Below are positions 12,421-63,803 of a stretch of DNA of 64,000 nt, one piece after another. The stretch is from NCBI GenBank assembly GCA_947503765.1, contig CANNFA010000001.1, forward strand, positions 744,001 through 808,000, given 5' to 3'. The stretch is from an uncultured Paracoccaceae bacterium (GTDB taxonomy: Bacteria > Pseudomonadota > Alphaproteobacteria > Rhodobacterales > Rhodobacteraceae). The position numbers and the translations under genes are program-made. Below the pieces are notes generated by a model, which was given only the letters and a program-made list of their open reading frames with translations, searched no databases and had not been told where the DNA came from. Positions within the stretch are counted from its first letter, which is position 1. Each line of letters opens with the position of its first letter.

Positions 12421-12720
12421 AGGCAGGCGTCAACTACCGGCAAATCGCGAAAGCCACGCCTTCGTCGGGCCGCGGCGCGGCGATCCGGAGCGTCGAATCC
12501 CTCGATTCATGGCTGCCAGCGTCGCCCAGGATCGAAGCTATACGCCGATGGCCGCCAGATCGTCGGGCCGTGGGGGCAGCCCGGCGACGGCGCGGCGGCC
12601 TTCGGCCTCGATTCCGCGCCATTTGGCAATATCCGCCCGCCCCGACCCCGCGCTCGGAAAAACCGGTTCAATCCGCCTGCCCCAAGGCGTAGAACACCCC
12701 AATCAGGCAGGAGACGCGAC
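12421..12720. other. 300-bp gap before gpmI, nothing clear
   Basis: No ORF with a ribosome site, no long palindrome and no tRNA-like fold was seen. The last bases (GCAGGAGACGCGAC before ATG 12721) supply a good AGGAG ribosome site for gpmI. The gpmI promoter presumably lies here but cannot be placed. Confidence 0.4.
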
Positions 12721-36107: not shown

Positions 36108-36449
36108 TCAGGCGTAGACCGATTCCTTGCCGAAATGCTTGACCAGCATGTAATAGACGACAGCGCGGTACTTGTTCCGCTCGGAGCGGCCGTAAGTGTC
36201 GATGACCTTGTTGATCGCATCCATCAATTCCGGCCCATCGCGCAGCGCCAGCTTCTTGATCAGGAAATTGTCCTTCACGGTTTCCAGCTCTTCCGGCTGC
36301 CCGGCAGCAACGGTCGAGGCGTCGGCGTCGTAGATCGACGGCCCGCATCCGATCGTCACCTTGGTCAGCAGGTCCATGTCCGGCGTCATGTTGCACTTGG
36401 TCTTCAGATCGTCCGCATATCTTGCGATCAGCTCGTCACGTCTTCCCAT
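36108..36449 (-). CDS. DUF2853 family protein
   Basis: Small soluble helical protein of 113 residues matching the DUF2853 family: DELIARYADDLKTKCNMTPDMDLLTKVTIGCGPSIYDADASTVA, then EELETVKDNFLIKKL and NKYRAVVYYMLVKHFGKESVY. Family function is unknown, and a structure-based role is not evident from the sequence. It appears monocistronic. ATG 36449 lies behind GAGAGGGACCG, giving an adequate ribosome site. Confidence 0.85.
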   Translation of the reverse strand: MGRRDELIARYADDLKTKCNMTPDMDLLTKVTIGCGPSIYDADASTVAAGQPEELETVKDNFLIKKLALRDGPELMDAINKVIDTYGRSERNKYRAVVYYMLVKHFGKESVYA

Positions 36450-36585
36450 CGGTCCCTCTCCGCCAATTCATGTTGCGGGGCACGTCCGGCGCGTGCCCTT
36501 GCGCGGCAGGTTAGTCAGGAAACCCCCGCGGGAAAAGCCATTTCATGCCGCGCGCGCCCGGACCGTGGCGGCGGCGCGACGCGAA

Positions 36586-36612
36586 AAGGGCGCATCGCGG
36601 GGATGCGCCCTT
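36586..36612 (-). terminator. Factor-independent terminator of the PRC-barrel gene
   Basis: On the minus strand AAGGGCGCATC-CCCGC-GATGCGCCCTT forms a perfect 11-bp stem followed by TTCGC, with TTTT at the stem foot. It begins 35 bases past the stop of the PRC-barrel gene. Confidence 0.8.
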
Positions 36613-36646
36613 CGCCGGGATCGGGGCAGGATCGCAGCGAACCGCG

Positions 36647-37207
36647 TTACTGCGCCGTCTCGGTCCCGTCATCCTGCATGGGATCCTCGGGTTCCTCGCC
36701 CGCGCCGTCCGCAGGTGTATCGTTTTCCGGCGCTTCGGTCGTGGCCGGTGCCGCGCCGGCGCCCATCACCTGCGCGATGGGCGTGTCGTCCGGCAGGCCC
36801 TCGAGGGTGGATTCGTCCACTTCGGGCTGCGCCTTCAGCGACTCCTTGTCGGTGGGCAGGGTGAAGAAGGTGCCATCCGCGCTCAGCTGGAAATCCGCCA
36901 GCGGCAGGGCGACGGTATATTCGCCCATGCCCAGAAAGCCGCCGATACCCAGCACCGCCGCGGCGCCGCTGCCCTGGTCGATGACATAGTCGATCTCGGC
37001 GATCTTGTTGCCATCCGGGTCATAGGCGAGCATGCCGACCACGTCGCCGACCGTCATCTCCTCGATGCTGGTAAAGGCCGGTGCGGCGGGTTCGGCCGCC
37101 ACGGGCGGCTCGGCGGTGGCGCCGTCTGTGGCGGTGGTCTGCGCCATCGCACCGCCGGCCATCAGGGCCAGGATCGCCACGCTTGTCGTCAGGGGTCCGG
37201 GTTTCAT
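36647..37207 (-). CDS. Exported PRC-barrel domain protein
   Basis: The 186-residue protein starts with a signal peptide (SVAILALMAGGAMAQ), followed by an Ala/Pro/Glu-rich linker and a PRC-barrel fold (EEMTVGDVVGMLAYDPDGNKIAEIDYVIDQGSGAAAVLGIGGFLGMGEYTVALPLADF). The C-terminal tail is acidic and Pro/Thr-rich. PRC-barrel proteins bind RNA, proteins or pigments; exported forms in alphaproteobacteria have no settled role. ATG 37207 has GGAGGCAC upstream. The transcript ends at the hairpin 36586-36612. Confidence 0.83.
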   Translation of the reverse strand: MKPGPLTTSVAILALMAGGAMAQTTATDGATAEPPVAAEPAAPAFTSIEEMTVGDVVGMLAYDPDGNKIAEIDYVIDQGSGAAAVLGIGGFLGMGEYTVALPLADFQLSADGTFFTLPTDKESLKAQPEVDESTLEGLPDDTPIAQVMGAGAAPATTEAPENDTPADGAGEEPEDPMQDDGTETAQ

Positions 37208-37285
37208 CGCTGTGCCTCCTTTGCAGGTCACTGTCATGACCATGAAAGGCTCCGGCGGGCGCGATCGTTCCGCGAAACGACAAGA

Positions 37286-37304
37286 CCCCGCCGAACGGGC
37301 GGGG
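37286..37304 (-). terminator. Factor-independent terminator downstream of ahcY
   Basis: CCCCGCC-CGTTC-GGCGGGG on the minus strand, followed by TCTTGTCGTTT, 68 bases after the ahcY stop. The 7-bp GC stem and T-rich tail are typical. Confidence 0.75.
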
Positions 37305-37330
37305 CCTTGCCAAAACCGTGATGCAGCGCG

Positions 37331-37372
37331 GGCCGGTTTCCGCCATCGCGGGCCGGGCGGCGGAAACCGGCC
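37331..37372 (-). repeat. 14-bp perfect inverted repeat at the ahcY stop codon
   Basis: GGCCGGTTTCCGCC (37331-37344) and GGCGGAAACCGGCC (37359-37372) pair fully around a 14-base loop. The outer base touches the ahcY stop codon (37372-37374). It is an mRNA 3' hairpin upstream of the terminator at 37286-37304 and could protect the message from exonucleases. Confidence 0.7.
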
Positions 37373-38766
37373 TAGTAGCGGTAATGCTCGGGCTTGAACG
37401 GCCCTTCCGGGGTCACGCCGATATAGGATGCCTGGTCGGAAGACAGTTCCGTCAGCTTCGCGCCGACCTTGGCGAGGTGCAGGCGCGCGACCTTCTCGTC
37501 CAGATGCTTGGGCAGCACATAGACCTCGTTGCCGTATTGATCGCCCTTTGTGAACAGCTCGATCTGCGCCAGCGTCTGGTTGGCAAAGGACGCCGACATC
37601 ACGAAGGACGGATGCCCCGTCGCATTGCCGAGGTTCAGCAGCCGCCCCTCGGACAGCAGGATGATCCGGTTGCCCGACGGCAACTCGATCATGTCCACCT
37701 GGTCCTTGATGTTGGTCCATTTGTGGTTCTTCAGCGCGGCGACCTGAATTTCATTGTCGAAATGGCCGATATTGCCGACGATCGCCATGTCCTTCATCGC
37801 GCGCATGTGGTCCAGCCGGATCACGTCGCGGTTGCCGGTGGTGGTGATGAAGATGTCGGCGCTGTCCACCACATCCTCGAGCAGCACCACCTCGTAGCCG
37901 TCCATCGCGGCCTGCAACGCGCAGATCGGGTCGACCTCGGTGACCTTGACGCGCGCGCCGGCGCCGCGCAGCGACGCGGCAGACCCCTTGCCGACATCGC
38001 CGTAGCCGCAGACCACGGCGACCTTGCCGGCCATCATCGTGTCGGTGGCGCGGCGGATGCCGTCGACGAGGCTTTCGCGGCAGCCATACTTGTTGTCGAA
38101 TTTCGACTTGGTGACGCTGTCATTGACGTTGATCGCGGGGAAGGGCAGCAGACCGGTCTTCTGCAGATCGTACAGGCGGTGCACGCCGGTCGTGGTTTCC
38201 TCGGTCACGCCCCGGATCATGTCCCGCTGCTTGCCGAACCAGCCGGGGCTTTCGGCCATGCGCTTGCGGATCTGGGCAAAGAGGGCCTCTTCCTCCTCGC
38301 TCTGGGGGACGGCGATCAGGTCTTCCTCGCCCGCCTCGACACGCGCGCCGAGCAGGATGTAGAGCGTCGCATCCCCGCCATCGTCGAGGATCATGTTGCA
38401 GCCGCCTTCCTCGAACTGGAAGATCCGGTCGCAGTAATCCCAGTATTCCGGCAGCGTTTCGCCCTTGACGGCAAAGACCGGCACGCCCGCCTCGGCGATG
38501 GCGGCGGCGGCGTGATCCTGCGTCGAGAAGATGTTGCACGACGCCCAGCGCACATCGGCGCCCAGATGCACCAGCGTCTCGATCAGGACAGCGGTCTGGA
38601 TGGTCATGTGCAGGCTGCCGGCGATGCGCGCACCCTTGAGCGGCTTGGCCTCGCCGTATTCGTCGCGGATCGACATGAGGCCGGGCATCTCCGTTTCGGC
38701 GATGTCCAGTTCCTTGCGCCCGTAGGCGGCAAGAGAGATGTCCTTGACGAGATAATCCTTGGCCAT
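37372..38766 (-). CDS. ahcY: Adenosylhomocysteinase
   Basis: NAD-dependent hydrolase that splits S-adenosylhomocysteine into adenosine and homocysteine, relieving product inhibition of methyltransferases. The 464 residues include [38 protein letters not shown], the second signature [39 protein letters not shown] (NAD-binding loop), [11 protein letters not shown] and the C-terminal KPEHYRY lid. The bacterial 40-residue insert is present. Its 3' end carries two hairpins; upstream lies a duplicated non-coding region. Confidence 0.98.
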
Positions 38767-38834
38767 GTGCGGCGGCTCCTGTGACTGGCTGATATCCGGG
38801 CAGGCTTTAACACCGGCGCGGAAGGTTCGGCAAG

Positions 38835-39241
38835 GCGATCAGCCCCCGGCGCGGCCGCCCCTGGGCGTGCGTCGGCGGGGCGGGCTTGCGGGGCGGTTTA
38901 TCGCCGTCTTCCCGCATGACATTCGTTCGGCGCGGGGTGTCTGGTTATGCGCGCGCCCTCGGGGAGGGGCGGGCACGTCGGGAAGGGGCGGGCGCGTCGG
39001 GAAGGGGCGGGCGCGTCGGCGCTGGTTGTCTCCGCCACCCTTGGGCACCGATCATCTTTCATCAAAAGGAGCACGCGATCAGCTCACGAAGCGGCCGCCC
39101 CTGGGTGGGCGCGGGCATGACGGTCGAGCGGTGCGGTTTATTCCAGCCTTCCCGTATGACTGCGCCCCGGCGCGGGACGTCGAACATGCGCCCGCCCGAG
39201 GGAAGGGGCGGGCGCGGCGGGGGCTGGTCGCCCCCGCCACC
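38835..39241. repeat. Diverged non-coding tandem duplication, 240-bp period
   Basis: Unit 1 (about 38835-39040) and unit 2 (about 39075-39241) align at a 240-base offset: GCGGCCGCCCCTGGG at 38851 and 39091, GCGGTTTAT at 38893 and 39133, CTTCCCG.ATGAC at 38908 and 39148. Unit 1 holds 38 extra bases, two additional 19-mers, which shifts the later match to an offset of 202. Unit 2 folds into hairpins 39188-39215 (10 bp) and 39216-39238 (9 bp). The block fills the 521-bp gap between EVE and ahcY. The indels are not multiples of three, which argues against coding. Confidence 0.75.
38963..39019 (+). repeat. Three tandem 19-bp repeats
   Basis: GGAGGGGCGGGCACGTCGG (38963-38981) is followed by two identical copies of GAAGGGGCGGGCGCGTCGG (38982-39000 and 39001-39019). 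They lie inside unit 1 of the 240-bp duplication; unit 2 has a single related copy at about 39201-39219. There are no spacers, so this is not a CRISPR. Confidence 0.9.
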
Positions 39242-39287
39242 TTTATCCGAGGGTTTTCTCTACCCCCGCACCCACTGCCCTACCCGT

Positions 39288-39707
<420 letters not shown>

Positions 39708-39724
39708 GATCGCTCTCCGTTCGT

Positions 39725-40690
39725 TCATTCCGGGCGCAGCGGGCGGGCCAGCAGTGCCTCTGCCGCCTCCGCCACGCTGGCGCGTCCGTTCAGCACCGCG
39801 GCGATGGCATGGGTGATCGGCATGTCCACCCCGTCGCGCCCGGCCAGCGTATCGACCGCACGGGCGGTGGCAATCCCCTCGGTGGTGGCGGTGACATCGG
39901 CCTGTCCCGCGCGGCCCAGCCGCAGCCCGTAGGCGAAGTTGCGCGATTTCTCCGAGGTGCAGGTCAGCACGAGATCCCCCAGCCCGGACAGCCCGGCCAG
40001 CGTTTCGCGCCGGGCGCCGCGCGCGAGGGCAAGGCGCAGCATCTCGGCATGGCCGCGGGTCAGCAGCGCGGCGCGGGCGCTTTCGCCCAGCCCCGCGCCG
40101 ATGGTCATGCCGCAGGCGATGGCGATCACGTTCTTGAGCGCGCCGCCCAGTTCCACACCGGCCAGATCGGCGCTGCGGTAAAGGCGCAGAACCGGCGTGG
40201 ACAGCCGCGATTGCAGCAGCCGCGCGGCGGTCTCGTCCGCGACGGCAAGCGTCAGGGCGGTCGGCAGGCCGGCGGCGATGTCGACGGCAAAGCTCGGTCC
40301 CGACAGCAGCGCCGGGATCGCGCCGGGCGCGCGCGCGGCGATCACGCCGGCAGGGCCAAGGCCGCTGCCGAGATCCACCCCCTTGCAGCAGGCGACAAGG
40401 GGCTTGCCCGTCCAGAGCGCGGAATCCTGCGCAAGGAAGGCGGCGAGCGCCTGCATCGGCACGGCCAGCAGCAAAACGTCCGCGCGCGCGGCCTGCGCAA
40501 GGTCTGCGGTGGGCGTTACGCCGGGCGGCAGGGTGACACCGGCAAGCCGGGCCGCGTTCTGGCGACTGCTCGCCATGGCGCGCGCCTGCGCCGGATCGCG
40601 GGCCCAGAGCGCGACTTTCTGATCGCCGCGCGCCAGCGCCACGGCCAGGGCGGTGCCGAAGGCCCCCGCGCCCAGCACGGCGACGCTCAT
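39725..40690 (-). CDS. gpsA: Glycerol-3-phosphate dehydrogenase [NAD(P)+]
   Basis: Reduces dihydroxyacetone phosphate to sn-glycerol 3-phosphate for phospholipid synthesis. The 321 residues have the Rossmann motif [14 protein letters not shown] at the N-terminus, [50 protein letters not shown] with the catalytic Lys, and [26 protein letters not shown]. It overlaps the tsaD stop by 4 bases, so expression is coupled. Length is slightly below the usual 330. Confidence 0.96.
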
Positions 40691-55581: not shown

Positions 55582-55653
55582 GGGGGGCTGTCTGCCCCCC
55601 GCCCCGGCCCTGCGGCCGGGACTCCCCCCGAGGATATTTCGAAACCGAAGAAG
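55582..55653. repeat. Dispersed extragenic element, copy C, with two hairpins
   Basis: The hairpin GGGGGGC-TGTCT-GCCCCCC (55582-55600) is followed by CCCGGCC-CTGC-GGCCGGG (55603-55620) and then CCCCCCGAGGATATTTCGAA, ACCGAAGAAG (55624-55653). The first hairpin recurs base for base at 63749-63767, and the tail matches copies A and B. It lies 27 bases past deoD and could end its transcript. Confidence 0.75.
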
Positions 55654-63748: not shown

Positions 63749-63803
63749 GGGGGGCTGTCTGCCCCCCGGAGCCCCCCGAAGGTACTTCCGGCAAGATGAG
63801 GGG
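63749..63803. repeat. Dispersed extragenic element, copy E
   Basis: The hairpin GGGGGGC-TGTCT-GCCCCCC (63749-63767) is identical to that at 55582-55600. It is followed by GGAGCCCCCCGAAGGTACTT, CCGGCAAGATGAGG, a diverged form of the GATATTT...GAAGAAG tail. It lies 30 bases after the small exported protein and 134 before mdh, and could end the former transcript. Confidence 0.65.

Follow-up and report, generated by a model that had tools for sequence, protein, structure and literature searches.

Two repeat units beside ahcY

The window (the whole stretch of DNA analysed here, 64,000 nt long) holds a gap (38766..39288) between ahcY, coding for S-adenosylhomocysteine hydrolase (37372..38766, - strand; Pfam PF05221, E 4e-144), and an EVE-domain gene (39288..39728, - strand; Pfam PF01878, E 4.4e-51), and this gap contains two units of a repeat, both on the + strand, to which ahcY is a neighbour only. 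Unit 2 (39071..39239) is a complete copy of 169 nt that matches positions 1-169 of our covariance model (149.7 bits, E 1.5e-21) and ends about 50 nt from the 3' end of the EVE-domain gene. Its long hairpin is made of a left arm (39077..39112, + strand; alignment columns 7-42, RNAalifold on 27 copies) and a right arm (39188..39229, + strand; placed from the sequence and RNAalifold), which enclose a loop; its conserved, non-palindromic core reads GCGGTTTAT..CC.GCCTTCCCG.ATGAC (39133..39160, + strand; placed by the columns of alignment A1, described below). The unit closes with a terminal hairpin of 9 bp with the apical loop TGGTC (39216..39238, + strand; read from the sequence). In an alternative fold the beginning of the right arm forms a local 10-bp hairpin (39188-39215), the stems then being 39188-39197/39206-39215 (10 bp) and 39216-39224/39230-39238 (9 bp). 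No T run follows these hairpins, which consequently do not qualify as an intrinsic terminator.

Unit 1 (38831..39036, + strand; 96.6 bits with the covariance model) is a degenerate copy whose right arm is expanded by 38 nt; the nhmmer match to it covers 38835-38982 (+ strand), and its right end near 39036 was read from the sequence. The expansion is the product (2 x 19) of a 19-mer array of 3.2 copies (38959..39019, + strand; Tandem Repeats Finder, repeat families D3/D4). Between the units runs a direct repeat (38835-38920 / 39075-39160; 86 nt, 77% identity) with a spacing of exactly 240, which becomes 201 past the expansion (240 minus 38 minus one base). The 240-base register, the 38-base expansion built of two 19-mers, the one-base slip and the hairpins of 10 and 9 bp had all been described in the initial annotation, and all are confirmed in the sequence.

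The same annotation had read the pair as a tandem duplication, a view that the comparison with other copies does not bear out. Identity between the two units is 74%, less than the 76% that copies of this genome share on average, and each is closer to copies elsewhere: the nearest relative of unit 1 is another locus (78%) and the nearest of unit 2 are two other loci (83%). The idea that the window pair arose by a recent local duplication is therefore rejected. Local duplication nevertheless occurs in the repeat family, since the neighbouring pairs A, C (its first two copies), D and E of this genome are mutual best matches (88-91%) and look like local duplications; pairs B and F, which are not mutual best matches, do not look so, and neither does array C's third, partial copy. 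Separately, in a tree of the copies the partner of unit 1 is arrF_1 and that of unit 2 is arrF_2 (L041 11497-12002), in the same order, and it is therefore possible that the window doublet was copied, and moved, as a whole. Elsewhere in the window, 12447-12607 gives a weak match to the model (E 0.11) and is possibly a decayed copy.

A dispersed intergenic repeat of Rhodobacteraceae

The window units are two members of a dispersed, palindromic intergenic repeat of Rhodobacteraceae, about 170 nt long. The 27 intact copies of the genome to which the window belongs (the source genome) measure 168-171 nt and have a mean column identity of 82% in alignment A1, which comprises 27 of the 30 loci of that genome, with L001, L025 and L030 excluded for an insert or truncation. 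All share one layout, in which the left arm is followed by a loop (about 78 nt) that contains the conserved non-palindromic core, then by the right arm and the terminal hairpin. On the + strand the RNAalifold consensus of the 27 copies is a single long hairpin with 31 arm pairs and four minor pairs, and this hairpin is missing from the consensus fold of the - strand. A local stem of 6 bp or more can form at the start of the right arm in 25 of the 27 A1 copies; the terminal hairpin has a stem of 6 bp or more in 20/27 A1 copies, 20/37 copies of the cross-genus alignment A4 and 31/59 Thioclava copies, with TGGTC as its commonest apical loop. Many of the core columns in A1 are invariant or nearly so, and the TTTAT of the core is retained in most of the displayed copies from other genera, in which the outermost left arm is variable. 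Arrays of 4 and 5 copies occur in L310, of 4 in L311 and of 3 in L312. The five copies in L310 (12666-13528) lie head to tail with a period of about 182 nt, between an FtsX/MacB-type gene and methylmalonyl-CoA mutase. In some Thioclava copies (L258 6244-6401 and L271 2647-2805) the right arm is apparently lengthened by an additional insert of about 80 nt, which is similar to a different repeat common to L255, L278, L283 and L304.

With unit 1 as a DNA query, BLAST returned 37 matches in the 3.98-Mb source genome, part and arm-only matches included, and the covariance model found 42 there at E 1e-4, a recurrence well above what chance would give. The consensus matched 35 of 394 genomes of Rhodobacteraceae, the source genome included, by BLAST at E 1e-6 in a survey that scored two candidates per genome, and the covariance model at E 1e-5 matched 22 of 120, again including the source genome. 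In a sample of the class, two of 96 genomes matched, both of them Rhodobacteraceae (the source genome and one other), and none of 94 sampled genomes from other alphaproteobacterial families did so with the covariance model under Infernal's stricter filters. When 24 genomes, chosen mostly for having matches, were searched with the model, 22 gave matches: 57 in G282, 42 in the source genome, 23 in G013, 21 in G169 and 7 or fewer in the others. Four sister species have 2, 0, 1 and 0. The covariance search of the genome and its relatives that the initial annotation had put forward as a check thus returned 42 matches here and 0 to 57 in the other Rhodobacteraceae tested. A pattern scan of a species-genome collection found the repeat in at least 108 stretches, and the 80 stretches listed carry names that we take to be placed in Rhodobacterales, or are unnamed alphaproteobacterial MAGs. 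A 1.2-kb query around one copy gave 28 BLAST matches in Thioclava pacifica and 36 in Thioclava sp. JE_KL1, counts that include flank and part matches. The repeat was present in one of 72,556 plasmid records and in none of 50,697 phage records.

The element is non-coding, as had been claimed for the window pair: indels between copies disrupt any common reading frame, and no copy overlaps a called gene, either among the 32 copies above 60 bits in the source genome (32/32 between called genes) or among the 123 copies of 108 loci from the public collection (0/123; none of 155 in total). Copies sit mostly behind gene 3' ends, chiefly between convergent genes. The 95 copy-bearing gaps among the 108 loci, some of which share contigs and are thus not fully independent, comprise 53 convergent, 39 tandem and 3 divergent gaps, to be set against 55, 268 and 104, respectively, for the copy-free gaps of these loci, and against 12, 52 and 46 for copy-free gaps at least 200 bp long; convergent gaps are enriched over other gaps of 200 bp or more with p 3e-12. 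The 24 gaps with copies in the source genome show a weaker convergent excess (10 convergent, 12 tandem, 2 divergent), with p 0.009 when compared with all other gaps and p 0.11 when compared with the 24 others that are at least 200 bp long. In the tandem gaps of the 108 loci, 16 copies are oriented with the genes and 23 against them. Our own scan found an intrinsic terminator within 120 nt outside the repeat at 0/32 copies of the source genome, 3/83 named-locus copies and 23/59 Thioclava copies; both gene and terminator calls in these counts come from our own scripts, not from curated annotation. The ten genes scanned next to or close to arrays, in two genomes, encode unrelated proteins of metabolism, transport and regulation, and no partner gene common to the arrays was found among them. 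Adjoining one copy, L104 1183-1482 matches the cspA thermoregulator below threshold, with 36 bits where the cut-off is 78.

Preservation of the strand-specific fold

A strand-specific long hairpin and the terminal hairpin have been preserved in this family, as demonstrated by covariation, by mismatches that are G.U more often than A.C, and by the slow change of the arms at orthologous sites. In the cross-genus alignment A4 (37 copies, 34 distinct), both sides have changed in 14/31 pairs, with a score of 0.207 vs 0.089 when shuffled; pairing is seen in 91.5% of cells and in 41-55% with slid partners, and the real alignment was equalled by none of 500 shuffles. Among the 59 Thioclava copies, change on both sides affects 22/31 pairs (score 0.237 vs 0.087). 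Both alignments were fitted to the covariance model and therefore lean toward the structure, and in A1, aligned without a model, just 4/35 pairs change on both sides and the covariation term is near zero. The non-Watson-Crick cells of the arms, read on the + strand, stand at G.U:A.C = 48:5 and 53:8, and at 81:15 in Thioclava; counted as inferred events, the ratios are 22:4 and 23:4. Substitution directions are balanced both in the arms (A1, 21:24; A4, 31:30) and in the loop (A1, 60:74; A4, 107:116), so that the G.U excess is not the result of strand-biased mutation, and the two observations together speak for a folded single + strand. This strand, whether as RNA or as ssDNA, appears to be under selection, in keeping with the earlier description of a structured module. 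The best + strand fold of both window units is the long hairpin, with modest z scores against shuffles (-2.24 for unit 2 and -1.35 for unit 1); on the - strand, the window units score -1.99 and -0.77.

The comparison of two Thioclava species (20 regions of G413 and 33 of G414) revealed ten two-sided orthologous sites that carry copies in both, seven of them with equal orientation. Divergence was measured, with 60-nt flanks, at eight same-orientation sites, these seven and the one-sided L255/L278: mismatches number 27/470 in the arms (5.7%), 113/564 in the loop (20.0%) and 122/842 in the flanks (14.5%), so arm divergence lies below that of the loop (p 6e-12) and that of the flanks (p 7e-7). At one degenerate site, L258/L282, the arms are as diverged as the loop (12/51 and 14/64); without it, the arms differ at 15/419 positions (3.6%). 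At three of the ten orthologous gaps the whole element, terminal hairpin included, lies in opposite orientation (L258 3338, L261 1509 and L266 1509 vs L282, L291 and L298). Loop similarity, which ranks 5th, 13th and 1st of 33 at these sites, supports a flip at one of them and does not tell flip from re-insertion at the other two. The three opposite pairs differ at 12/170 arm and 53/216 loop positions, and since these pairs of doubtful orthology also have slow arms, some of the slow change in the arms may be a property of the whole family, for instance through gene conversion. One further site (L268/L292) has a copy in T. pacifica only, L288 bears an extra inverted copy, and one deletion remnant occurs among the Thioclava sites; no empty site with clean junctions was found in this comparison, the best candidate, in L288, holding a remnant.

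Known repeat families and candidate roles

The present repeat is best read as a family new in itself but of a kind already known, the REPIN/ERIC-like palindromic repeats; a literature search (titles, abstract starts and motif letters, with subscription papers mostly outside it) returned no description of it. REPINs are characterized as REP doublets forming hairpins, the 16-mers of GI doublets starting 71 bp apart (PMC3116915). Like them, the repeat is an intergenic inverted doublet whose conserved ends form one long hairpin with compensatory changes, and it occurs in ordered tandem clusters that take in flanks; unlike them, it is about 170 nt long, has a RAYT-type (Y1) transposase in 0/12 genomes and has no gene shared among the ten scanned beside or near its arrays. 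It also has the terminal inverted repeats, the size under 200 bp and the absence of coded protein typical of MITEs of the ERIC/Correia type, and it resembles ERIC/IRU/RU-1, Correia/NEMIS and other MITE-like repeats in being dispersed and in forming highly base-paired long stem-loops from inverted ends (PMC2229807). It differs from them in being GC-rich, most of those repeats being described as A+T-rich (PMC2229807), and in being found only in Rhodobacteraceae among the genomes searched; no TA at its ends and no target-site duplication was visible by eye in the aligned flanks. The CIR repeats of Caulobacter and Brucella, described as about 110 bp long with a conserved GANTC site, are likewise alphaproteobacterial, intergenic, of inverted organisation and outside genes (PMC2229807), but the GANTC methylation site is missing from the present copies (0/27 and 1/37, when shuffles give 7.8/27), and membership of that family is rejected on this ground. 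REP sequences share the extragenic, palindromic and repeated character, but they are short stem-loops, of 14-40 nt in E. coli (PMC12306157).

The reading that we favour, on balance probable though far from assured, is that this new REPIN/ERIC-like family is kept as folded hairpins acting at transcript 3' ends. Run-through RNA from a flanking gene would fold into the hairpins of the repeat, and these would fix or shield the 3' ends of transcripts and block transcription from the opposite side. The distribution suggests that the family spreads by copying into new gaps and by local tandem duplication, presumably through machinery other than a RAYT transposase in the genomes tested. The main point against a simple role in the 3' UTR is the orientation in tandem gaps (16 with the genes, 23 against them), which weakens it because orientation is unfixed while the fold is strand-specific, and a plain role of this kind would predict a single orientation; moreover, survival of insertions only where they are harmless would produce this distribution as well. 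A rather unlikely variant would be a lineage-specific mobile hairpin, serving bacteria as a ready-made, orientation-tolerant 3'-end insulator, that spreads free of RAYT, re-occupies or flips within the same gaps between species, and whose copies are then held by selection for the strand-specific fold.

The somewhat unlikely alternative that has most to be reckoned with is a selfish, non-autonomous repeat (REPIN- or MITE-like), whose fold would be needed by a transposase acting on ssDNA hairpins and whose location at 3' ends would reflect tolerated insertions. The patchiness of range and of copy number (from 0 to 57 matches in a genome; 2, 0, 1 and 0 in the sisters), the opposite orientation at 3/10 Thioclava sites, the extra copy in L288 and the one-species site L268/L292 all suit such an element, G.U pairing fits ssDNA equally well, and slow arms extend to pairs that may not be orthologous. 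However, a dead copy should drift, whereas the arms change more slowly than the flanks at orthologous sites (27/470 vs 122/842, p 7e-7); no target-site duplication was seen, and the ten genes scanned around arrays have ordinary functions in metabolism, transport or regulation. RAYTs belong to the Y1 transposase class, and a search for Y1_Tnp (PF01797), positive as a control in 5/14 named genomes, E. coli included, found it missing in 12/12 copy-bearing genomes, so that no RAYT partner was found in these 12. Some BIMEs have been reported to bind protein or to absorb supercoils between convergent genes, and the palindrome could in principle be such a DNA-level site, in line with the strong enrichment in convergent gaps in both orientations; we consider this improbable, however, in that a double-stranded site gives no reason for an excess of G.U over A.C on one strand. 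That strand-specific fold, with its conserved loop core, would also suit a small regulatory RNA family, with each copy transcribed from its + strand, but beyond the repeat the copies of the source genome show only a faint likeness in their flanks, so that no shared promoter is evident there, no Rfam family corresponds, and copy numbers and sites vary widely, which makes such a family very improbable.

Scarcely credible is the explanation with which the analysis of this locus had begun, a tandem regulatory module of ahcY linked to the SAM cycle. The repeat does lie 69 nt from the ahcY start, but its + strand is antisense to the gene, and homologues of the AhcY and EVE proteins were found at none of 190 loci from the repeat searches (most of them in other genomes, with some redundancy and not always with a full copy) and in none of 17 other regions of the source genome. 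In three sister species with mutually agreeing gene order (tblastn), an HD-domain gene is followed by ahcY, the 36647 gene and DUF2853, reading opposite, and then by the EVE gene. Relative to these three same-genus genomes the block DUF2853, 36647 gene, ahcY is inverted in the window (36108-38766), and the gap with both units forms one junction of this three-gene inversion. The fetched ahcY regions of the three sisters contain no significant copy; in one of them, G004, the stretch that separates ahcY from the HD-domain gene has a weak arm-only match of 20.9 bits (E 0.18 when 121 kb are searched, E 0.001 for 701 bases), which may be a decayed copy or chance, and which is the other observation in favour of the module. 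The repeat is thus upstream of ahcY because of a rearrangement, whether or not it took part in it, and is probably not a special switch for this gene. In addition, no Rfam family, the SAM/SAH riboswitches included, reaches its gathering score in window 38700-39350 or in eight loci of other genera, and a riboswitch or known RNA is rejected accordingly.

What had appeared to be a local duplication is therefore a repeat family that spans many genera of Rhodobacteraceae and whose stems are apparently under selection. If the role at 3' ends is true, it may explain how convergent genes are separated without T-run terminators in some GC-rich Rhodobacteraceae; if it is false, the question becomes what moves REPIN-like DNA where RAYT is missing. 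Both readings are testable in the type strain Thioclava pacifica DSM 10166, which carries many copies.

The initial annotation had also suggested a relic of a hairpin-element family related to GGGGGGCTGTCTGCCCCCC. The repeat is indeed a dispersed hairpin element, but the kinship is not supported: the 17-mer core of GGGGGGCTGTCTGCCCCCC recurs at two further window sites, 55583 and 63750, with different flanks, and therefore looks like a different family. These sites are the two exact occurrences of the hairpin repeat GGGGGCTGTCTGCCCCC (55583-55599 and 63750-63766), each with CCCC-rich DNA that contains GAGGATATTT or GAAGGTACTT within about 50 nt after it, and GGGGGCTGTCTGCCCCC is probably a second intergenic repeat family.
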